In this document: positions 11,789 through 31,592 of the stretch, in pieces
How the letters are laid out: each line of letters begins with the position of its first letter
Position numbering within the stretch: position 1 is the first letter of the stretch
Source: Deltaproteobacteria bacterium
GTDB lineage: Bacteria; Myxococcota_A; UBA9160; UBA4427
Direction of reading: 5' to 3'
NCBI GenBank assembly: GCA_029261855.1
Contig: JAJDAN010000063.1
Coordinates: 1 to 50,489, forward strand
DNA length: 50,489 nt
Notes under the pieces: generated by a model
Told to the model about the DNA's origin: nothing
Database searches by the model: none
What the model saw: the letters and a program-made list of their open reading frames with translations, nothing else
Program-made: the position numbers and the translations under genes

Positions 11789-13768
11789 ATGAAGTCCCAG
11801 CCCCGCAGCCCCCAGCCCTACGGCAGCTGGCCGACGCCGCTCACCAGCGAGCGGATCCTGTCCGGCGCCCTTCGACTCGGTCGGCCGCAGCTCGATCGCG
11901 GTTGGCTGTACTGGCTGGAGGGACGTCCGTCCGAGGGGGGGCGTCAGGTCGTCGTTCGCGCGCGGCCCGGCGTCGCGGCCGAGGACGTGACCGGCCCCGA
12001 GGAGAATGTTCGCAGCCTGGTCCACGAGTACGGCGGGGGCGAGTACCGGGCGCACGAAGGCAGCCTGGTCTACACGGACATGGCGACGGGTCGGGTGCTC
12101 GTCCGGGACGTCGCCGGCGAGGCGCCGGTGCAGGTCGTCTGTTCCGGCGTCGGGGACCCGGGAGGCGAAGCGGGATCCGCGCGCTACGCGGACTTCGCGG
12201 TGTCGCCGGACGGCGCCTGGGTCGTTGCCGTGGAGGAGCGCGCACGAGCCGGTGCCGAGCCGGAAAACCGCATCGTGGCGTTCCGGCTGGACGCGCCGAC
12301 GCCCCGGGTCGTGGCCTCCGGACACGACTTCTTCAGCTCTCCCTGCTTCTCGCCCGACGGCCGCAGTCTGGCCTACCTGGCCTGGGATCACCCGAACATG
12401 CCGTGGGATGGCACGCGCCTGTTCGTGCGTGCATTTGCGGAAGACGGTCCCCAGGGCGAAGCGCGGTGGGTCGCCGGCGGCTCGAGCGAATCCGTCTTCC
12501 AGCCCGGCTTCTCGCCGGCGGGCGTCCTCACCTTCGTCTCGGATCGCAGTGGCTGGTGGAACCTGTACCGGCAGGAAGTCGACGCTGAAGCGCGCAACCT
12601 GTGCCCGCGAGACGCCGAGTTCGGACGGCCCCAGTGGGTCTTCGGCATGTCGACCTGGGCGTACCGATCCGAGCGGGAGATCCTGTGCAGTGTCTCGGAC
12701 GAGGGCTTCGATCGCATCTGTCGACTCGACGTCGAGACGGGCGAACTCGAGCCGCTCGGACTTCCCGAATCCAACGCCGTCGGCCTCGAGATCGAGCGCG
12801 AGATCGCGTGCTTCGTGGGTGGCTGCCCGGACCGGGCGGCGGCGATCTCGCGGTTGGATCTCGAGACCGGCGAAGCCGAGATCGTTCGCTCGAGCTTCGA
12901 GGTTTCCCTGCCCCCGGAAGCGTTCTCCCTGCCCGAAGCCATCGTGTTTCCGACCCAGGGTGGTCGCAGCGCACACGCGTTCTTCTACCCGCCGACCAAC
13001 CCCGACTTCGAAGGACCGGCGGGTGAGCTTCCGCCGCTGCTGGTCAAGAGCCACGGGGGCCCTACGTCCGCGACGGTCCCGGTCCTGAATCTCTCGATCC
13101 AGTACTGGACGAGCCGGGGCTTTGCGGTGGTCGACGTCAACTACGGTGGCTCGTCGGGCTATGGACGCGCCTACCGCGAACGTCTCGCCGGGAGCTGGGG
13201 CCGAGTGGACGTCGAGGACTGCGTCGCGGCCGCAACTCATCTCGCCGAGACCGGCCGTGTGGACCCGGCGCGCATGGCGATCAGCGGCGGCAGCGCGGGC
13301 GGCTACACGACACTCTGTGCGCTCACCTTTCATGACACCTTCGCCGCCGGCGCCAGTCACTACGGGATCGGCGATCTCGAGGCTCTCGCGCGGGACACCC
13401 ACAAGTTCGAGTCCCGCTACCTCGACGGGCTGGTAGGTCCGTATCCCGAACGCGCCGATCTCTACCGGGAGCGCTCGCCCATCCACTTCAGCGAGCGGCT
13501 CGGGTGCCCGGTGATCTTTTTTCAGGGTCTCGAGGACAAGGTGGTACCGCCCAATCAGGCCGAAGCCATGGTCGCGGCCCTGGCTGCCCGGGGCATCCCA
13601 CACTCCCACGTGACCTTTCCCGGCGAGCAACACGGCTTCCGGCGGGCCGAAAACATCCAGACTGCGCTCGAAGGCGAGCTGTACTTCTACGGCCGCATCT
13701 TCGGGTTCGAGACGGACGTCGCGCCTGCCGGCGTCGAGATCGTCAACGAAGGAGTCTCTCGCACGTGA
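11789..13768 (+). CDS. S9-family prolyl oligopeptidase-like serine peptidase
   Basis: This 659-residue protein combines an N-terminal beta-propeller (WD40/PD40-like blades such as FSPDGRSLAYLAW) with a C-terminal alpha/beta-hydrolase. The catalytic serine is in GGSAGGYTTL near residue 501, the aspartate in GLEDKVVPP near 584 and the histidine in GEQHGF near 615. It resembles the acylaminoacyl-peptidase/dipeptidyl-peptidase branch. No signal peptide is visible, so it is probably cytoplasmic and degrades small peptides. Its stop overlaps the start of the next gene (GTGA), which implies coupled translation with a predicted metalloprotease. Confidence 0.92.
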   Translation: MKSQPRSPQPYGSWPTPLTSERILSGALRLGRPQLDRGWLYWLEGRPSEGGRQVVVRARPGVAAEDVTGPEENVRSLVHEYGGGEYRAHEGSLVYTDMATGRVLVRDVAGEAPVQVVCSGVGDPGGEAGSARYADFAVSPDGAWVVAVEERARAGAEPENRIVAFRLDAPTPRVVASGHDFFSSPCFSPDGRSLAYLAWDHPNMPWDGTRLFVRAFAEDGPQGEARWVAGGSSESVFQPGFSPAGVLTFVSDRSGWWNLYRQEVDAEARNLCPRDAEFGRPQWVFGMSTWAYRSEREILCSVSDEGFDRICRLDVETGELEPLGLPESNAVGLEIEREIACFVGGCPDRAAAISRLDLETGEAEIVRSSFEVSLPPEAFSLPEAIVFPTQGGRSAHAFFYPPTNPDFEGPAGELPPLLVKSHGGPTSATVPVLNLSIQYWTSRGFAVVDVNYGGSSGYGRAYRERLAGSWGRVDVEDCVAAATHLAETGRVDPARMAISGGSAGGYTTLCALTFHDTFAAGASHYGIGDLEALARDTHKFESRYLDGLVGPYPERADLYRERSPIHFSERLGCPVIFFQGLEDKVVPPNQAEAMVAALAARGIPHSHVTFPGEQHGFRRAENIQTALEGELYFYGRIFGFETDVAPAGVEIVNEGVSRT

Positions 13769-22751: not shown

Positions 22752-23708
22752 TCAGCCGGTCGGCCCGGGGAAGAGCGCGTCGATCTGCTGCAGGGTTTCG
22801 TCCGAGAGACGCATCCCCGAGGCCTTGCAGTTCTCTTCGAGCTGGTCGGCGCGGGTCGCGCCGACGATCACGCTCGCCATTTCGGGCCGGCGCAGGCACC
22901 AGGCCAGCGCGAGCTGGGCCAGCGATGCGCCGGTGTCGGCGGTCAGCGGACGCAGCTGCTCGACCCGGGCCAGGACGTCTTCGGCGAGCAGCGCACCCAT
23001 CCAGCGATTGCGTTGGGGGTCCGCCGCGCGACTGCCAATCGGCCTCGCGCCGTCGGCGTACTTCCCGGTGAGCGCGCCCTGGGCGAGCGGGCTGAAGGCG
23101 AGCTGTCCGAGTCCAAGCTCGTGGGCGACCGGCATCGCGTCGGCCTCGACGTCGCGTCGCAGGATCGAATAGGAGGGCTGGCTCGACAGCGGTCGGTAGC
23201 CGCCTGTCGCGTCGGCGATCTCGCAGGCTCGGCGGATCTGGGCGCCGGTCCAGACCGAGACGCCCCAGTGCAACAGCTTTCCCTGCCGGATCAGGTCCTC
23301 GTACGCGCGCACGGTTTCTTCGAGCGGGGTGTCGGGGTCGAAGCGGTGGCACTGATGCAGGTCGATGTAGTCGCTGCCGAGACGTCGCAGCGAACCGTCG
23401 ACACTCTCGACGATGTGCTTGCGCGACAGGCCCCGATCGTTCGGGCGTTCGGACATGGGAAAGAAGCACTTCGTCGCGATCACCAACTGCTGTCGCGGCA
23501 GGTCGCGTAGCGCGCGACCGAGCGCTTCCTCCGCCGCGCCGTTCTCGTAGACGTCCGCTGTATCGAAGAAGTTGATACCCAGGTCGAACGCGCGCAGGAC
23601 CAGGTCGTCGCTCGCTGACGTCGCGACCGCCGACCCGAGGGTCAGCCACGACCCCAGTCCGATTTCGCTCACCTGCAGTCCGCTCTGGCCGACCCGGCGG
23701 TACTCCAT
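22752..23708 (-). CDS. Aldo/keto reductase
   Basis: This NADPH-dependent carbonyl reductase has 318 residues and a TIM-barrel fold. The start MEYRRVGQSGLQVSEIGLG is typical of the Kv-beta/YghZ branch. Catalytic residues are D49 and Y54 (FFDTADVYENG), K80 (VIATK) and a histidine in DLHQCH. The C-terminal cofactor segment ASVIVGATRADQLEEN is present. It leads the run aldo/keto reductase, VTT protein, GST. The divergent hydrolase gene starts 121 bases away, so the two share a promoter region. Its physiological substrate cannot be read from sequence. Confidence 0.92.
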   Translation of the reverse strand: MEYRRVGQSGLQVSEIGLGSWLTLGSAVATSASDDLVLRAFDLGINFFDTADVYENGAAEEALGRALRDLPRQQLVIATKCFFPMSERPNDRGLSRKHIVESVDGSLRRLGSDYIDLHQCHRFDPDTPLEETVRAYEDLIRQGKLLHWGVSVWTGAQIRRACEIADATGGYRPLSSQPSYSILRRDVEADAMPVAHELGLGQLAFSPLAQGALTGKYADGARPIGSRAADPQRNRWMGALLAEDVLARVEQLRPLTADTGASLAQLALAWCLRRPEMASVIVGATRADQLEENCKASGMRLSDETLQQIDALFPGPTG

Positions 23709-23829
23709 GCGGGCAGCGTAGCGATGATCGCGGCTTGCGGACCCGCAGCAGGCGCGCGAGCTTGTCGGACCCCGAAATCACGCCGGGCACCGCGAAGCCC
23801 CCAATTCGAGCAATCACGAGGAGTCCCCC

Positions 23830-24570
23830 ATGGCGATCACCACCGAGCGCGTCCAGATCCCCCAGGCCGGCGGATCCTTCGGCGGCTATCTGGCGCGGCC
23901 CGAAGGCGACGGCCCGTTCCCGGGCGTCATCGTCTACATGGAGATCTTCGGCGTCAACGCGCACATCCGCGACGTGACCGAGCGCGTGGCCGCCGAGGGC
24001 TACGCCGCGATCGCGCCGGACTACTTCCACCGCAGCGGTCCCGGTGTCGAGCTCGCCTATGACGACGCGGGCATGGCCGCGGGGATGAAGCTGCTCGGAC
24101 AGCTGACGGCGGACGAGATGATCGCCGACGCCCAGGCCACCCTCGCGTATCTGCGTGCCCGCGACGACGTGAAGGGCGACAAGATCGGTGCGATGGGGTT
24201 CTGCATCGGGGGCCACATGACGTACCTGACCGCGGCCACGACCGATGTCGCCGCTTCGGCGTCGTTCTACGGCGGCGGCATCGCCGGGCCCCAGGGCCCT
24301 GGTGGCGGGGCGTCGACGGTGACGCGCACCGACGGCATCGCGGGCCGGATCGTGTGCCTGTTCGGCGGGAAGGACGCGATGATCCCGTCGAGTCAGGTCG
24401 ATGCCATTCGCACGGCGCTCGCCGACGCGGACGTCCGGGGCGAGGTGGTCGTGTACGACGACGCCGACCACGGCTTCTTCTGTGACCAGCGCGCCACCTA
24501 CAACGAAGCAGCCGCCAAGGATGCCTGGGGTCGCGTGAAGCAGCTCTTCGCGGCCGAGCTTCGCGACTGA
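23830..24570 (+). CDS. Dienelactone hydrolase family protein
   Basis: This 246-residue alpha/beta-hydrolase has the dienelactone-hydrolase triad. The cysteine nucleophile is C125 in GFCIGG, the aspartate lies in GGKDAMIP, and the histidine is in DDADHGFF. The early glutamate in VYMEIFG (E38) is the residue that activates the cysteine in this family. It probably cleaves lactones or esters in aromatic or related catabolism. A clear ribosome binding site (GAGGAG) precedes the ATG. No chlorocatechol or protocatechuate gene is nearby, so the true substrate is open. Confidence 0.9.
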   Translation: MAITTERVQIPQAGGSFGGYLARPEGDGPFPGVIVYMEIFGVNAHIRDVTERVAAEGYAAIAPDYFHRSGPGVELAYDDAGMAAGMKLLGQLTADEMIADAQATLAYLRARDDVKGDKIGAMGFCIGGHMTYLTAATTDVAASASFYGGGIAGPQGPGGGASTVTRTDGIAGRIVCLFGGKDAMIPSSQVDAIRTALADADVRGEVVVYDDADHGFFCDQRATYNEAAAKDAWGRVKQLFAAELRD

Positions 24571-24649: not shown

Positions 24650-24872
24650 GTGGAAGGTGTCCGTGAGCCTGCTTGCAGGTGCACGGCAGTCGGGGCGGGG
24701 TGAGGTGGTCTCATCGCGAAGCCCGGCTGCGGGAAGCCGGTGGGAATCCGGTGCGAGCCCGTCGCTGTAACTGGGGACGATCGTCGTAAGAGTCCACTGG
24801 CCGGAGCCCCTTCAGGGCGACCCGCTGGGAAGGCATGACGACCGGGCGATCCAGGAGCCAGAAGACCGGCCT
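24650..24872 (+). promoter_or_regulatory. Cobalamin (B12) riboswitch
   Basis: The conserved core is clear. A GGGAA stretch near 24731 is followed by GCCGGTGGGAATCCGGTGCG and CGCTGTAACTG, then TCCACTG (24792-24798, variant of GCCACTG), GGGAAGG (24827-24833) and GAAGACCGGCC (24861-24871). It lies 60 bases before a BtuB-like receptor gene on the same strand, the classic arrangement. Bound adenosyl- or other cobalamin should turn the downstream operon off. No terminator hairpin with a T-run is visible after the core, and the receptor ATG lacks a plain ribosome binding site, which suggests control of translation. Confidence 0.93.
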
Positions 24873-24931
24873 TCCAAGCAGTTTCGCGGTCTCCGGGGAC
24901 GAGAGCGCGGGGCGTCGGGCTTCCCTCACAC

Positions 24932-27067
24932 ATGGCTTCCGAAATCGGCCGAGTCTTCGGCCGAACCCCCGGACTGGCCGGCCAACGTGCCGCGGTCCGG
25001 ATCGTGCTCGCATTGTCCGTGCTGTTCCCGACCCTGGGGCTGGTGCCGGTGGGCTTCCGGCCGTCGGCCGCGTGGGCCGACGACGCACCGGGCGAGCGTC
25101 GCCGCCTGCCCACCGCGAGGGTCACCGCGGTGCGACCCGAAGAGCTTCCCGACGACCCGTCGTCCTTCGCCACCGTCATCGAGACGGCGGACTACGAGGG
25201 CGAAGCCACGAGCGTCGAGCAGGTGCTGCAGGAATCCGTCGGCGTCCAGGTGCGCAGCTTCGGCGGTCCGGGCCAGGCTTCGGAAATCAGCATTCGGGGG
25301 TCGACCGGGCAGCAGGTCGTGATCCTGTTCGACGGCGTGCGGCTCAACACCGCGCAGTCCGGGACCGTCGATCTGTCGACCCTGCCGCTCGCCATCGTCG
25401 ATCGCATCGAGATCGCTCGGGGCGGCGGTAGCGCGGAGGTCGGTAGCGGCGCCATCGGCGGTGTCGTCAACATCGTGTCGAAGCGACCCACCGGGAAGCC
25501 GCGTACGAACGCGAGCTTCACCGGAGGCTCCTTCGGCACCTACGAAGGATCCCTGTCCCACGCGGACCGCAGCGGGCCCGTCGACTGGGGGGCCGCCTAC
25601 TCGGGCTTCACGACCCAGGGCGATTGGAAGTTCCAGTCCGTCGAAGTGAAGGCGGACGGCGTGACGGTCTTTCCCAGCGAAGAGCTCGAGCGCGTGAACA
25701 ACGAATCCGAGTCTCACGCGGCGCTGGTGCAAGGGGCGGGCGACCTCGCGGACGGCCTGCGGCTGCGGGTCTGGGACAGCTTCTTCTTCGTCAGTCGTGG
25801 GCAGCCGGGCCCGGACGACGACCCGCTGGCGCCCAACGGCGGGCAGAGCCGGACGGCCCACGAACGCCGGACGCGCAACGTTGCGGCGATGACCCTCGAA
25901 GTCGACGGCTGGGCCCCGCTGCCGGCGTCGGTCCAGCTCGCATCGACCGTCTCCTACCTCTACGAGCAGAGCCGCTTCCGCGAGCCGGAACCCGATCTCC
26001 TCGACGACCCCATCGAGACGCGGCAGAAGAACCGGTCCGGCGCCTGGCGGACGACGGGCCGCTGGCAGGGCAAGGGCTTCGGCGTCGAGCACGACGCGGG
26101 GCTCGGGTTCGAGCTTCGCTACGAGTCGCTGTCCTCGAGCGATGCGGGCTTCCACCGCCGGACCACCGAAGCCGTCACGGTCAGCGACGAGATCGGTGTC
26201 TGGAAGAATCGCGTGCAGCTGGTGCCGACCCTGCGCTTCGACCATTCGGACGACTACGGCAGCGAGTGGATCCCGCACTTCGGCTTGATCGTGTCGCCAA
26301 CCAAGTGGCTTCGCTTCAAGGCGAACGCCGAGCGGTCGTACCGGGCGCCGGACTTCGACGAGCTGTTCTTTCCCGACAAGGGCTTCGTGCGCGGCAACCC
26401 GGACCTCGACCCGGAAGACGCCTGGAACTACGACGGAGGCTTCGAGCTGGGCTTCGAGCAGCTCGCGTTCCTGGACGACGTGCGACTGCAGTGGGCCTAC
26501 TTCTACCAGGACATCGAGAACTCGATCGTGTTCCAGCGCATCAGCCCGACCACCGTCGCGCCCACGAACACGAGCGATGCGCGGGTTCACGGTTTCGAGC
26601 TGTCGGGCCGCTTCGGTCTCTTCGACTGGTTGGAGTTCTCGGCCAATTGGACGCATCAGGACGGAGAGCTCGACGAGGCCCGAGACCCTGCCGACGGCGG
26701 TGGGCTGTTCCCGCCCATCGCACAGCCGGCGGGCACGGCGATCCCCGGCCAGGCGGACGACGAAGTCCAGCTGCGGCTGCGACTCGGTCCCTCGTCCGGA
26801 CTGTTCAAGCTCGTGGCCGAGCGCCACTACACGTCGAAGATCCACCTGAACTTCAGCAACGCATCGACGTTGAGTGCCCGGACCGTCTACGACCTGTCGG
26901 GTGGCGTCGATCTCGCCCAGCTGTGGCGGCTCGACCGTCGCTGGTTTCCGAAGAAGCTGATCGCTTCGATCACCGTCACCAACGTCGGAGACGTGAGCGT
27001 GCGTGACAGCGTGGGGTTCCCCCAGCCCGGACGCTTCCTGTACTTCGGCATCGAGGGCAGCTGGTGA
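24932..27067 (+). CDS. btuB: TonB-dependent outer-membrane receptor, BtuB-like
   Basis: This protein of 711 residues has a long N-terminal export signal (hydrophobic stretch IVLALSVLFPTLGLVPVG). A plug domain follows (VEQVLQESVGVQVR, ISIRGSTGQQVVILFDGV, GSGAIGGVVNIVSKR), then a 22-strand-type barrel with the receptor motif YRAPDFDELFFPDKGFVRGNP. It ends near GRFLYFGIEGSW, an aromatic-rich terminal strand. A clear TonB box was not found; LPTARVTAV after the signal is the best candidate. The riboswitch makes cobalamin or a cobinamide-type corrinoid the likely ligand. Its TGA overlaps the GTG of the next gene. Confidence 0.92.
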   Translation: MASEIGRVFGRTPGLAGQRAAVRIVLALSVLFPTLGLVPVGFRPSAAWADDAPGERRRLPTARVTAVRPEELPDDPSSFATVIETADYEGEATSVEQVLQESVGVQVRSFGGPGQASEISIRGSTGQQVVILFDGVRLNTAQSGTVDLSTLPLAIVDRIEIARGGGSAEVGSGAIGGVVNIVSKRPTGKPRTNASFTGGSFGTYEGSLSHADRSGPVDWGAAYSGFTTQGDWKFQSVEVKADGVTVFPSEELERVNNESESHAALVQGAGDLADGLRLRVWDSFFFVSRGQPGPDDDPLAPNGGQSRTAHERRTRNVAAMTLEVDGWAPLPASVQLASTVSYLYEQSRFREPEPDLLDDPIETRQKNRSGAWRTTGRWQGKGFGVEHDAGLGFELRYESLSSSDAGFHRRTTEAVTVSDEIGVWKNRVQLVPTLRFDHSDDYGSEWIPHFGLIVSPTKWLRFKANAERSYRAPDFDELFFPDKGFVRGNPDLDPEDAWNYDGGFELGFEQLAFLDDVRLQWAYFYQDIENSIVFQRISPTTVAPTNTSDARVHGFELSGRFGLFDWLEFSANWTHQDGELDEARDPADGGGLFPPIAQPAGTAIPGQADDEVQLRLRLGPSSGLFKLVAERHYTSKIHLNFSNASTLSARTVYDLSGGVDLAQLWRLDRRWFPKKLIASITVTNVGDVSVRDSVGFPQPGRFLYFGIEGSW

Positions 27068-28695
27068 CGGATCGCACGCATCGCTTGCGCTCGGCCGCGC
27101 TGTTGGTCGTGCTCGCCCCCCTGGTCCTGGCGGGGAAGTGCGGGGGAGGCGACGGCAGCAGCGGATCGCCGCCCGTCGTCGATCAGACGAGCTCGGATGT
27201 GCGGTGCGCTCCGCTCGGTGAAATCGGCGGCTTCCCGCCGGGCTACGACTTCATCCCGGGCGCCGGCGCGGCGAGTCCCACGCGCCTGCTTGCGGGCACC
27301 GCCACCGGGTCGGTGCTGATCCCGTTCGGGATCGATGCCGTGCCGTTCCAGATCCCCGCCGGTCTCGCGACCTATCCCCTGCCGGGGGATTCCGACGGCG
27401 ACGGCATCCCGGAATTCTTCAAGAGCATCGCCGCCATCGACGGGGTCGCTTCGGACCTCGCGCTCGTGACGGTCAGCGGCAACATCGATGGCGTGCTGTT
27501 CGTCGACCCGGGCGGGGTGGGGCCGCGGTCTGTGCGGGTCGACGTGCCGGCGGCCTTCGACCCCGCCGACTTCGCCCCGTTTCCCGGCCTGCCGGCACCC
27601 GGTACGTCGCGCTTGCAGACGGGCATCACGGCTTCGGCGTGCATCGACGCCGGCGCGGGTGCCCGCGACTCGCGCGGGGATCTCCTGGTGGACGCGATTC
27701 CCATGGCGGCGTGGTGCAACGGGCCGGGCAGCTTCCCGGCGAGCTTCGCGTCGGCGTCGGCACAGGTGGGCGACCGGCTCTTCGTGGCGACATCGAACCT
27801 CGGCGCCCGGCAGGGCATGCCCGACACCCAGTTCCTTCCCGGTGCAGTGGTCGCCTACGACTTCGACGCGTCGGGGGACCCCCTGGTGGTGGGGCCGACT
27901 CTCTCGACGCCGGACGGGCGCCCCTACATCGTGACGAGCGCCTTCAATCCTTCGGGCCTGACCCCGTTCACGACGGCGTCCGGCCGAGCGCTGCTGCTCG
28001 TGACCCAGACCGGCGCCATCGGGATCGAGCAGGACGACCCGAACACCGACGAGATGGAGAGCGGCACCTTGCCCATCACGGATGGCGCCATCGACGTGAT
28101 CGACGTCGCGGCGCTCGAACTCGTCGCGACGATCCCCCTCGCCGACGCCAACCCGAGTCTCGGCCCGCTCGGCATCGATCCCAGCGGACGCGTCGCGGCG
28201 TTCGGCGACGTTGCCGGTCGTTCCGTGTACGCCGTCGATCTGGCGGCCCTCGACGCGCTGCCGCCGGCGGGGTCCGGGGCGCCCGTCGTGCTCGACGCGG
28301 CCGTGATCTTCGACGGCACCAATCCGCTCGTCGTGCCCGGACGCATGCCACGCGCTGCGTCGGCGTCGTGTGGCGGCCGCATGGAGGGCGCAGCCTTCAA
28401 CGCGATGGGCGACCGGCTGTACGCGCTCGAAACCTGCGACGGCACCGTCGGCGCCTGGGACGTGGATCTTTCGGGCGATCCATCCCTCGCCGAGCTGCGC
28501 ACTCGCTTCACGTTCGCGGTGCTGTCGGTGGCCACGGCGGCGCTGCGGGTCGACACCCTGGGGCAACTGCGACAGCCGGCGAGTCTCGCGGTGCGGCCGG
28601 GCACACCGGGCGTCGACTACGCGGGGCCCGACGTCTTCTTCACGATCGGCGATCCGGAGGGACTGGTATGCGGCGTTCGCATCGACGCGCCCTGA
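27064..28695 (+). CDS. Exported beta-propeller-like protein, B12-controlled
   Basis: This protein has 543 residues. The N-terminus (LVVLAPLVLAGKC with C26, then GGGDGSSG) is a signal peptide with a near-lipobox cysteine. Most of the rest shows repeated strands of surface-propeller type, such as IDVIDVAALELVATIPLA, GRSVYAVDLAALDALP and GDRLYALETCDGTVGAWDVD. No named family is recognised. Its start (GTG 27064) overlaps the btuB stop, so it is co-translated with the receptor. By position and propeller character it could be an analogue of BtuG, the B12-binding surface lipoprotein of Bacteroides, which is an inference from context rather than homology. Confidence 0.72.
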   Translation: MTDRTHRLRSAALLVVLAPLVLAGKCGGGDGSSGSPPVVDQTSSDVRCAPLGEIGGFPPGYDFIPGAGAASPTRLLAGTATGSVLIPFGIDAVPFQIPAGLATYPLPGDSDGDGIPEFFKSIAAIDGVASDLALVTVSGNIDGVLFVDPGGVGPRSVRVDVPAAFDPADFAPFPGLPAPGTSRLQTGITASACIDAGAGARDSRGDLLVDAIPMAAWCNGPGSFPASFASASAQVGDRLFVATSNLGARQGMPDTQFLPGAVVAYDFDASGDPLVVGPTLSTPDGRPYIVTSAFNPSGLTPFTTASGRALLLVTQTGAIGIEQDDPNTDEMESGTLPITDGAIDVIDVAALELVATIPLADANPSLGPLGIDPSGRVAAFGDVAGRSVYAVDLAALDALPPAGSGAPVVLDAAVIFDGTNPLVVPGRMPRAASASCGGRMEGAAFNAMGDRLYALETCDGTVGAWDVDLSGDPSLAELRTRFTFAVLSVATAALRVDTLGQLRQPASLAVRPGTPGVDYAGPDVFFTIGDPEGLVCGVRIDAP

Positions 28696-29357
28696 CCGCG
28701 GGAATCGCGGTGTTCGCGTGGCTCGGGCTCGTGGGCCCGGCGGCCGCGCCGCTGCGCGCGGTGGCGCCGCTGGCATCAGGGGCACCAGTGTCACCAGTGG
28801 CACCAGTCGCAAGCGACGAGCCCGGCCCGCGAGTCGTCGCCGTACTGTCGCCTTCCGGCAGCATCGCCCGGGACGTCATCGGCGTGGATCCTTCCGGGCC
28901 GCGAGACCTGTTCCTGTGGCAGCGCGTCGAAGGCCGCGGGCCCGAGATCGTCGGGCGCGTGCGCAGTGGCGCGGACGGAAGCTTCGCCGCCGAAGACGTG
29001 ATGATCTCGCCCCGGGGCGGCCGCATCCTGGTCTCACCTTCGACGGGGGTTGCGCCAGGCTCTTTCGAAGCCGGAGGCGCGGTCTTCGAAGCGACCGCGC
29101 GCCCGCACCTCGTTGCCTGGCGGGAAGGCGAGCAGATCGTCGTGGGAATGGCGGTGCGCGCGCAGTCCGTCCTGCTCGCGGACGCCCGTCGGCGCGAGGT
29201 CGCCCGTTTGGCCGTCCCCGCGTCCCCCCGCCGCGGTGCCGTGTGGCGGGCCGACCTCGAAGCCCGCGTCGCCTTCGTCGCACCCGAACCCGTTCACGGC
29301 CAGCCCGTTGCATGGCAGCCGCTGCCCATCGCCTCGTCACAGGAGAAACGTCCATGA
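28668..29357 (+). CDS. Exported hypothetical protein, B12-controlled
   Basis: This protein has 229 residues. It starts with a signal peptide (RRALTAGIAVFAWLGLVGPAAA) and a short tandem Ala-Pro/Val linker (APLASGAPVSPVAPVA), followed by a small beta-rich domain of unknown family. ATG 28668 lies 28 bases inside the preceding gene and has a strong GGAGG at 28656-28660. Its stop overlaps the next ATG (ATGA). Translation of all four genes behind the riboswitch is thus chained. A periplasmic or surface accessory role in corrinoid uptake is an inference from position. Confidence 0.7.
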   Translation: MRRSHRRALTAGIAVFAWLGLVGPAAAPLRAVAPLASGAPVSPVAPVASDEPGPRVVAVLSPSGSIARDVIGVDPSGPRDLFLWQRVEGRGPEIVGRVRSGADGSFAAEDVMISPRGGRILVSPSTGVAPGSFEAGGAVFEATARPHLVAWREGEQIVVGMAVRAQSVLLADARRREVARLAVPASPRRGAVWRADLEARVAFVAPEPVHGQPVAWQPLPIASSQEKRP

Positions 29358-30418
29358 GAACGCATTCTGAATCCCGCACGCTGCCCCGCCTCGGGGCCGG
29401 CTTCGTGGCCGCCGTCGCCCTCGTCCTGTGGACGGCCGGCACCTGCACCTCGTCGCTGCCGGTCATCCGCATCCTGACACCGGAAGTCGGTGTCGATGAG
29501 ACCTACCACCCGCTCTTCCTCGAGGTCGACCTGTGGGCCTTCGCGGACCTCAGCACCTTCGAGGTGCTGCTCAACGGCGTCGACATCACCGACGACTTCG
29601 CGCTCGAGTACGTCAAGCCGCGCGTGGTCGGGACGGCGATCGACGTCTGGGGCGACGGTCTGGTGCTGCCCGGTGAGAACACCCTCGTCGTGCGCATCGA
29701 GAAGTGGGAGGAGATCCGGGTCTTCGATACGACGGGCGATCCGCATGCGGACGCGGTGGCCGACTTCGTGCCGGGAACGGGCGCGGGTTTCGGGCAGCTC
29801 GAGCTGCCGGGCGTGGTGCTCGGCGCGCCCCAGGGCCTCGGTCTCTTCCTGGGCGGTCTCGACGTGCTCAGCCTCGGGGCGGGCGGCGTCGTCGACCTGG
29901 AGTTCGTCGACAACGTCATCGTCGATCGTCCCGGCGTCGACTTCACGGTCTTCGAGAATCCGTTCTTCACCGTGGTGTTCGGCTTGCTGGGTGAGCCGTT
30001 TGCCGAACCGGGACGCGTGTCGGTGAGCCAGGACGGCGTGACGTGGTTCGCCTTCGATGCCTGCCAGACGGCACCCCTCGACCCGCCGCTCCACCCGGGC
30101 TGCGCGGGTGTGTTCCCGACCCTGAGCGACGACCTCGACCCGCTGGCGCCGCATGCGTCGATCCCGACGGAGACCCCGATCGGCGACCTCGTGGGCGTCG
30201 CCCAGGGCACGCTCGTGGTGCCCGAAGGCTCGGGGGGAGACTCCTTCGATCTCGCCGACGTCGGTCTCGCGTGGGCGCGCTACGTCCGAATCGAGGACGT
30301 GGGTCCAGCGTTGGGCCAGGCCGGGACCGTCGGCTTCGACCTCGACGCCGTCACCGCGGTGAATTCGGCCGTGCCGACGGATGCGAACGACAACGGGGTG
30401 CCCGACGCCGCGGAATGA
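29354..30418 (+). CDS. Exported surface-protein-like gene, B12-controlled
   Basis: This 354-residue protein has a signal peptide ending near TAGTC (C30) and an all-beta body. The central part reads GTGAGFGQLELPGVVLG, then VLSLGAGGVVDLEF and PGVDFTVFENPFF, followed by AEPGRVSVSQDGVTWF. From memory this matches the layout of surface proteins found beside BtuB-type receptors in Bacteroidota (a GGS-type strand, DFxVFEN, then EPG...S-x-DG-x-xW). It ends in a dockerin-like, calcium-loop-type tail (DANDNGVPDAAE). The start (AGGAG at 29341-29345) overlaps the preceding stop. No enzyme motif is seen; ligand capture is possible. Confidence 0.7.
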   Translation: MRTHSESRTLPRLGAGFVAAVALVLWTAGTCTSSLPVIRILTPEVGVDETYHPLFLEVDLWAFADLSTFEVLLNGVDITDDFALEYVKPRVVGTAIDVWGDGLVLPGENTLVVRIEKWEEIRVFDTTGDPHADAVADFVPGTGAGFGQLELPGVVLGAPQGLGLFLGGLDVLSLGAGGVVDLEFVDNVIVDRPGVDFTVFENPFFTVVFGLLGEPFAEPGRVSVSQDGVTWFAFDACQTAPLDPPLHPGCAGVFPTLSDDLDPLAPHASIPTETPIGDLVGVAQGTLVVPEGSGGDSFDLADVGLAWARYVRIEDVGPALGQAGTVGFDLDAVTAVNSAVPTDANDNGVPDAAE

Positions 30419-30446: not shown

Positions 30447-31592
30447 CTAGCCCTGGCCCAGCTCCTGCTCGAGGGCGCCGACGAGGCGGTCGACGTTTTC
30501 CTTGCGGGCGTTCTCGCCCATCAGGCCGACGCGCCAGACCTTGCCGGCGAGCGGGCCGAGTCCGCCGCCGACCTCGATGTCGTGGCCGTCGAGTAGGCGG
30601 CGTCGCAGGCCGGCTTCGCCCGCGCCGCCGTTCCAGCCGAGCACGCTGTCCGGCAAGCGCATGGTGGAAAGCGGTGGCAGGCGGTGTTCTTCGGCGACGA
30701 GGGGCGTGAAGCCGAGGGGCGCGAGCCCGGCGTAGAGGGACGCGGCAGCGTCCCGGTGGCGGGCCGCCCGGGCGTCGAGTCCCTCGGCGATCACCAGACG
30801 CAGGCCCTGGGTGAGGCCGAGGATCGCCGAGATCGGTGCCGTGTGGTGGTAGACGCGCTCGCCGCCGAAGTAGCCGGCGAGCAGGGTGACGTCGAGGAAC
30901 CAGCTCTGGACCGGGCGGCTGCGGGCGCGGACGGCGTCGAGGGCGCGGTCCGAGAAGCTGACCGGGGACAGGCCGGGAGGGCAGGCCAGGCACTTCTGGG
31001 TGCCGCTGTAGGCGGCGTCGATCCCCCAGTCGTCGAGGCGGACGGGCAGGCCGCCCAGGGACGTCACGCAGTCGAGCACCACGAATGCGCCGGCCTCGCG
31101 TGCGGCGGCGGCGATGGCCTCGACGGGCTGCAGCACGCCGGTGGACGTCTCGGCGTGGACGAACGCGACGACCTTGGGCTTCACGCGCGCGATCGCCTCG
31201 GCCATGGCGGCGGGCTCGAGAATGGTGCCGGGCTCGCTGTCGACCCGGGTGACCTCGGCGCCGGCGCGGGCGGCCACGTCGCACATGCGCCCCCCGAAGA
31301 CGCCGTTCACCCCGACCACGATGCGGTCGCCCGGCTCGAGCAGGTTGACGAGACAGGCCTCCATGCCCGCGCTGCCGGTGGCGGAGATGGGCAGGGTCAT
31401 GGCGTTCTGGGTCCCGAACAGGGTCCGCAGGTTGGCCTGGACCTCGTCGAGCAGCGCCAGGAACGCGGGGTCGAGATGGCCCGCCAGGGGTTGGGCCATC
31501 GCTGCCAGTACCGACGGGTGGACGTTGCTCGGTCCGGGACCGAGCAGCAGGCGAGGCGGAAGGGAGGGCAGGTCGGGGGTCGGGACAGTCAT
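30447..31592 (-). CDS. Class V aminotransferase (alanine/serine-glyoxylate type)
   Basis: This 381-residue PLP enzyme belongs to the serine/alanine-glyoxylate aminotransferase branch of class V. The N-terminal LLLGPGPSNVHP glyoxylate-transferase signature, the ATGSAGMEA PLP loop, the VVLDCVTSLGG aspartate and the Schiff-base lysine K200 in YSGTQKCL are all present. It transfers amino groups to glyoxylate, so it may serve photorespiratory-type or purine-degradation (PucG-like) nitrogen recycling. It faces the B12 operon convergently with 28 bases between. The exact donor cannot be set from sequence. Confidence 0.9.
   Translation of the reverse strand: MTVPTPDLPSLPPRLLLGPGPSNVHPSVLAAMAQPLAGHLDPAFLALLDEVQANLRTLFGTQNAMTLPISATGSAGMEACLVNLLEPGDRIVVGVNGVFGGRMCDVAARAGAEVTRVDSEPGTILEPAAMAEAIARVKPKVVAFVHAETSTGVLQPVEAIAAAAREAGAFVVLDCVTSLGGLPVRLDDWGIDAAYSGTQKCLACPPGLSPVSFSDRALDAVRARSRPVQSWFLDVTLLAGYFGGERVYHHTAPISAILGLTQGLRLVIAEGLDARAARHRDAAASLYAGLAPLGFTPLVAEEHRLPPLSTMRLPDSVLGWNGGAGEAGLRRRLLDGHDIEVGGGLGPLAGKVWRVGLMGENARKENVDRLVGALEQELGQG

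Follow-up and report, generated by a model that had tools for sequence, protein, structure and literature searches.

Described systems for cobalamin capture at the outer membrane

The closest described systems are those by which Bacteroides captures vitamin B12 at the cell surface. In the BtuBG system, a cobalamin riboswitch and a BtuB-type receptor are found with an adjacent seven-bladed β-propeller, BtuG, which has a lipoprotein-like N-terminal Cys (PMC6143338, PMC10404256). BtuG has been reported only from Bacteroidetes (PMC6143338), and in BtuG2 the corrinoid is bound on a negatively charged face of the propeller (PMC10404256). BtuH is likewise encoded in btuB operons with a riboswitch; the published survey of this family covered gut Bacteroidetes, and BtuH2 (7biz) contains three PKD domains (PMC8941943). 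BtuG1 (8blw) is a natural fusion of BtuG and BtuH (PMC10404256), and both of its halves bind cobalamin (PMC12751083). A further group, BtuJ/DUF4465 (PF14717), comprises B12-binding jelly rolls (PMC12751083, PMC13398666), and genes of this family are found beside those of the Pfam propeller family DUF5074 (PMC13398666). Among these B12 capture proteins, only DUF4465/BtuJ was previously known to be widespread. In the literature surveyed, which covered subscription journals in part, no BtuG/BtuH system is reported in Myxococcota apart from DUF4465, and neither a BtuH relative nor a BtuG-like propeller is reported in Myxococcota or Acidobacteriota.

Here we describe an operon from a Myxococcota genome that very probably encodes a riboswitch-controlled outer-membrane system for the capture and import of corrinoids (vitamin B12 and its relatives).

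Organization of the operon

The window (the whole 50,489-nucleotide stretch of DNA that was analysed) comes from an organism belonging to an order of Myxococcota metagenome-assembled genomes, carrying the older label Deltaproteobacteria. The operon lies on the plus strand and is headed by its cis-regulator, a cobalamin riboswitch aptamer (RF00174, 24686–24887), matched by cmscan over the full length of the model at 77.3 bits (gathering score, 31.5). The BtuB-like ORF begins 45 bases beyond the aptamer, and encodes a TonB-dependent outer-membrane receptor of 711 aa (24932–27067, plus strand). Both the TonB plug (PF07715) and the β-barrel (PF00593) of this receptor score over the Pfam cut-off, and among NCBIfam models the vitamin-B12 TonB receptor TIGR01779 fits best (E = 1.3e-43). 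The score of 149.5 bits is below the equivalog cut-off of 599.7, and the receptor is therefore named BtuB-like.

Three genes follow on the same strand, encoding O2 (27064–28695, 543 aa), O3 (28668–29357, 229 aa) and O4 (29354–30418, 354 aa). The start of O2 sits within a GTGA that also holds the btuB stop, O2 and O3 overlap by 28 bases, and the start of O4 sits within an ATGA that also holds the O3 stop. An N-terminal hydrophobic signal sequence can be read directly from the sequence of each of the three proteins. The original prediction, made from this sequence, had described a clear cobalamin riboswitch ahead of btuB, a three-gene chain and three signal peptides; the riboswitch score, the coordinates of all three junctions and the N-terminal sequences bear this out.

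A Pfam search with O2, O3 and O4 returned no family over the cut-off. For O3, neither a Pfam nor an NCBIfam model matches, but the protein carries a conserved DPxxPRxLxLW...SxxDGxFxF pattern, and many relatives have a homologous ORF after O2. O3 is a small exported protein with a putative accessory role. The operon is flanked (window positions 22752–24570 and 30447–31592) by genes named by resemblance as aldo-keto-reductase-like, dienelactone-hydrolase-like and, in convergent orientation, aminotransferase-like. Since the flanking genes also adjoin the operon in several relatives, its position in the genome is old.

O4, a BtuH-family protein

O4 consists of an Ig-like N-terminal domain and a C-terminal domain of the BtuH type, assigned through structural and profile matches. 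The predicted structure is of moderate quality (pLDDT 70.6, with a long low-confidence stretch at model residues 213–269). In a Foldseek search of 350,542 PDB chains, second place goes to the BtuG1 chain from the BtuB1-BtuG1 complex of B. theta. The top match by VIA-align is BtuH2 7biz (Z = 12.6, 159 residues, 20% identity), followed by residues 392–660 of BtuG1 8blw, which make up its BtuH part (Z = 12.2, 161 residues, 22% identity), while the next row has a Z of 8.9. Model residues 9–103 match Ig-like domains, with Z up to 8.9.

Sequence profiles lead to the same family. A profile built from 33 O4 relatives, searched against 177,635 PDB sequences with E up to 10, gives a sole match, 8blw_B residues 383–497 (E = 1.2e-5); a profile from the 13 close relatives alone gives no PDB match of note. 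Alignment of the O4 family by hhalign with this 8blw_B stretch gives an E-value of 4.8e-7, and with the matching stretch of BtuH2 5.3e-5. The C-terminal domain of O4 is a homologue of the BtuH domain.

In the BtuH2 crystal structure, Asn399 contacts the nucleotide loop, at its phosphate or on the ribose side, and Phe401 lies near the lower ligand (PMC8941943). With BtuH2 numbering fixed by taking Gln333 as the glutamine of APGQF, the segment DFCVQG-Asn399-Ala-Phe401 aligns with DFTVFE-Asn202-Pro-Phe204 of O4. The comparison of ligand contacts covers Asn399 and Phe401; for the others (Gln333, His476, Tyr510, Trp511, Trp577 and Leu578) the O4 model is of low confidence, and the sequence alignment stops short of most of them. 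Among the 33 relatives, the Asn202 position is Asn in all 33 and the Phe204 position is Phe in 29. Because these two residues fall on BtuH2 ligand contacts, the DFTVFENPFF motif (O4 residues 196–205; 29939–29968, plus strand) is part of a likely B12 site, and O4 is very likely a corrinoid-binding protein. In the original prediction, O4 looked like a surface protein with a calcium loop, built around a DFTVFENPFF core; the motif and the tail are indeed present, while the homology to BtuH had been missed.

The domain arrangement and anchoring of O4 depart in part from those of BtuH. An Ig-like domain stands in front of the BtuH-type domain in both, but O4 has one where BtuH2 has three PKD domains. 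The O4 family differs in its lipoprotein-like or PEP-CTERM anchoring and in its occurrence in Myxococcota and Acidobacteriota. The lipobox-like site of the window protein, AGT-C, is atypical. The protein ends in a calcium-loop-like tail, TDANDNGVPDAAE (30377–30415, plus strand); two of the 33 relatives match TSP3 repeats, and the O4-like protein of locus L082 has the same type of tail, followed by a PEP-CTERM-like anchor.

Most of the 33 relatives (30) also match NCBIfam NF033170, the Leptospira LIC_13355 lipoprotein. The window itself scores 27–29 bits against this model, far under the curated cut-off of 120. Fragments of BtuG1 and BtuH2 give no direct match to the LIC_13355 model, and the link between LIC_13355 and BtuH therefore rests on the O4 relatives; by this sequence route, LIC_13355 proteins may be members of the BtuH superfamily. 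The study of LIC_13355 reports no link to B12 (PMC11891782).

The O4 family could instead consist of carbohydrate-binding or adhesive modules, resembling BtuH only in the way that CBM32 does, with the riboswitch association due to the receptor alone. CBM32 domains do occur among the structural matches of O4, with Z up to 8.7, and work on the related LIC_13355 has looked at binding activities (PMC11891782). The Z-scores for BtuH2 and BtuG1 are well above this value, however, the profile matches the BtuH domain of BtuG1 and no CBM, and O4-like genes often stand directly behind a cobalamin riboswitch with no btuB detected nearby, so that such a role for the family is unlikely. For O4 itself, assignment as a CBM32 carbohydrate binder was rejected on the lower Z and the lack of a CBM match by sequence profile. 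Assignment of O4 to DUF4465/BtuJ was also rejected, as PF14717 matches none of the proteins of the window or of the window genome.

Recurrence of the operon and spread of the O4 family

The comparison within the order covered 80 genomes, from which 40 loci were taken for gene and riboswitch maps. Of these genomes, 40 contain O2 relatives and 14 contain close relatives of O4. In 30 relatives, not counting the window, the gene immediately before O2 is BtuB-like, and a cobalamin riboswitch heads the operon in 24 of 28 O2 loci, counting only those with sufficient contig. The other four (L074, L078, L079 and L086) contain an O2-O3 pair without btuB and without riboswitch, where the pair may have another role or act in trans. 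Some of these four pairs adjoin genes for CBS-domain proteins, and that of L079 also adjoins recA.

The gene order varies between groups. Close relatives have the order riboswitch, btuB, O2, (O3), O4. Another group encodes, between the riboswitch and btuB, a PEP-CTERM-anchored O4-like protein, which is often accompanied by a DUF4465 protein (PF14717, E-values of 1e-42 to 1e-50). A family that belongs to the class but not to the order has a divergent pair of cobalamin riboswitches: one is followed by btuB and an O2-like gene, the other by an O4-like gene. The parts are thus reshuffled and yet kept together, which points to a shared task and is stronger evidence than a fixed synteny would be. 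A chance operon is ruled out by the recurrence of the arrangement in many related genomes. Both O2 and O4 are, in relatives, mostly found beside btuB behind riboswitches, and not mostly away from them.

DUF4465 is present in 26 of the 80 genomes. Its members in the equivalent operons of relatives are PEP-CTERM proteins; the family is absent from the window genome, and O4 has no match to its profile. PEP-CTERM proteins of this BtuJ type follow cobalamin riboswitches in, for example, L052, L056, L057, L059–L061, L068, L083 and L085; in L060 and L068 DUF4465 is fused to an O4-like domain, and in L083 and L085 it has its own riboswitch. Some operons include an extra exported protein (oriented coordinates: L049, 4149–4982; L053, 3139–4164; L054, 5146–6099; L055, 10692–11714), which has a PEP-CTERM anchor where complete and a weak similarity to SGL/NHL-type propellers.

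Across the phylum, 125 of 189 genomes contain a match to the O4 profile and only 22 a match to the O2 profile, all of these in the order or in a single further family of the class. A cobalamin riboswitch lies on the same strand within 8 kb upstream in at least 33 of the 106 O4 places that fall outside the order. From the remaining places 20 were sampled, chosen for long contigs and not at random, and 12 of them have a cobalamin riboswitch. The expected chance rate, by our estimate from about two cobalamin riboswitches per genome of about 5 Mb, is well under 1%. The arrangement extends to Acidobacteriota, where six loci (L129, L131–L133, L135 and L137) have the order cobalamin riboswitch, O4-like gene, BtuB-like receptor. 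In three other loci (L149–L151), O4-like genes and a cobalamin riboswitch come right after a tRNA cluster and an SRP RNA gene, with no btuB detected within the 7 kb read.

The original prediction of a surface corrinoid-capture system outside Bacteroidota is upheld in so far as sequence comparison and structure models can speak for it, through the homology of O4 to BtuH and the recurrent linkage to riboswitches and btuB. BtuG/BtuH-style scavenging of B12 looks far more widespread than has been described.

O2, a predicted β-propeller in the position of BtuG

The AF2 model of O2, computed from an alignment of 35 O2 relatives, has a pLDDT of 92.5 and a pTM of 0.94. Residues 5–503 match seven-bladed WD40/YncE propellers with a VIA-align Z of about 29, the Foldseek matches are also propellers, and YncE is among the best bacterial structural matches. 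On this model, O2 is confidently predicted to be a seven-bladed β-propeller, as had been anticipated for the product of this gene before structure prediction and fold search were run.

O2 is exported and probably lipid-anchored. The family has a conserved Cys near the N-terminus, with a Gly/Ser/Asp linker behind it. In many relatives this Cys belongs to a good lipobox (LVGC or LLGC, for example), but AGK-C, the site in the window protein, is atypical. The mature protein is strongly acidic, with a pI of 4.05. O2 shares with BtuG the predicted propeller fold, the place beside the receptor and an N-terminal Cys suggestive of a lipoprotein, but the Gly/Ser-rich linker after the Cys is not the Bacteroidetes export signal.

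By sequence, no kinship to BtuG/DUF5074 is detectable. Two profiles, one from the alignment of 35 relatives and a wider one including relatives from the sister order, were searched against the PDB and gave no BtuG match; a link sought through the fusion protein described below gave none either, and DUF5074 is over the cut-off in none of the 80 genomes of the order. The alignment contains no stretch conserved enough for a degenerate-pattern search. β-Propellers are common folds, and the absence of BtuG among the Foldseek and VIA-align matches listed, which propellers saturate, is not counted as evidence. The suggested link to BtuG by context and predicted fold therefore stands for position, fold and lipoprotein character, and finds no counterpart in sequence homology. 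O2 is best described as BtuG-like in predicted fold, in place and probably in role, and is not classed as BtuG. That it binds corrinoids is plausible, and we lean towards it, less firmly than for O4.

A single protein combining the two parts is encoded in a groundwater deltaproteobacterium (L130), where an AdoCbl riboswitch and btuB are followed by a gene for a 709-aa fusion of an O2-like propeller (hhalign, 2.6e-19) with an O4-type domain (6e-64). The layout is that of BtuG1, which likewise comes after btuB behind a cobalamin-class riboswitch; the propeller half of the L130 protein differs in having no detectable relation to BtuG, and the window keeps the two parts as separate genes.

These data also bear on whether O2 handles the ligand at all. 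O4 and the receptor alone might deal with B12, with O2 a YncE-like propeller of generic function, serving to assemble, shield or tether the receptor. The absence of sequence kinship to BtuG, the place of YncE among the structural matches and the O2-O3 pairs away from btuB in four genomes would suit such a role. Within the order, however, no other gene accompanies btuB as constantly as O2, and the fusion in L130 unites an O2-like propeller with a BtuH-type domain as in BtuG1, both domains of which bind cobalamin (PMC12751083). We consider a purely generic function for O2 rather unlikely, and favour a BtuG-like one. On the origin of this likeness we are more tentative: Myxococcota may have recruited, independently of BtuG, a propeller lipoprotein that caps the BtuB-type receptor and passes corrinoid to it, alongside a BtuH domain of old origin that several phyla have in common, a reading to which we give somewhat less than even weight. 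If it is true, B12 uptake under a lipoprotein lid would have arisen convergently or would go back much further than Bacteroidota.

Probable B12 requirement and proposed mechanism of uptake

CbiC/CobH, an enzyme of corrin-ring synthesis, is found in none of the 80 genomes of the order by a search that does detect it in seven of the control genomes. The window genome encodes six proteins with a B12-binding domain over the cut-off, and contains one cobalamin riboswitch besides that of the operon. The absence of CbiC/CobH together with the presence of B12-binding-domain proteins points to a lineage that makes use of B12 and probably has to obtain it from outside, since B12 synthesis is, from its gene content, apparently absent.

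The operon could also serve a different cargo whose uptake is regulated by cobalamin, such as cobinamide, another cobamide, cobalt or heme. The receptor scores below the TIGR01779 cut-off, and its sequence does not reveal a ligand preference. Yet the parts of the ligand that BtuH2 touches, the corrin ring and the nucleotide loop, are common to cobamides (PMC8941943), and in an order without CbiC/CobH corrinoids are the expected cargo, which leaves room for cobinamide or another cobamide. A cargo other than cobalamin is, on balance, quite unlikely.

For the preferred reading, uptake of corrinoids, the following sequence of steps is proposed. At low intracellular B12, the riboswitch would permit expression of btuB, O2, O3 and O4 from one transcript. 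The BtuH-family protein O4, held at the cell surface, would take the corrinoid from outside, and the acidic propeller lipoprotein O2, beside or on the receptor like BtuG of Bacteroides, would receive or bind it. The BtuB-like receptor would then move the corrinoid over the outer membrane with energy from TonB, with O3 as a putative small accessory protein. In relatives, DUF4465 proteins are encoded in the equivalent operons, and this family has been shown to bind B12 (PMC13398666). We infer the surface exposure of these proteins, the contact between O2 and the receptor, and the route and direction of the hand-over.

Throughout Myxococcota, and also in Acidobacteriota, a BtuH-family protein is linked to cobalamin riboswitches, and in an order that gives no indication of corrin-ring synthesis the place of BtuG next to btuB is taken by a propeller family that looks unrelated to it. 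Surface capture of B12 would then be a general strategy of environmental bacteria. A likely function is provided for families that are unnamed in Pfam, a testable function is suggested for the Leptospira LIC_13355 family, and the system allows a natural test for repeated origins of the lid-on-BtuB mechanism.

The second cobalamin riboswitch of the window genome (locus L002, contig G000:C70, 1501–1753) precedes an ORF (1902–2483) whose product, an exported PEP-CTERM protein of 193 aa, matches nothing else in Pfam above the cut-off. A similar case of riboswitch and protein is present in genome G028 (L050, ORF 12867–13436, oriented coordinates), and the two proteins possibly represent another family of riboswitch-linked surface proteins.
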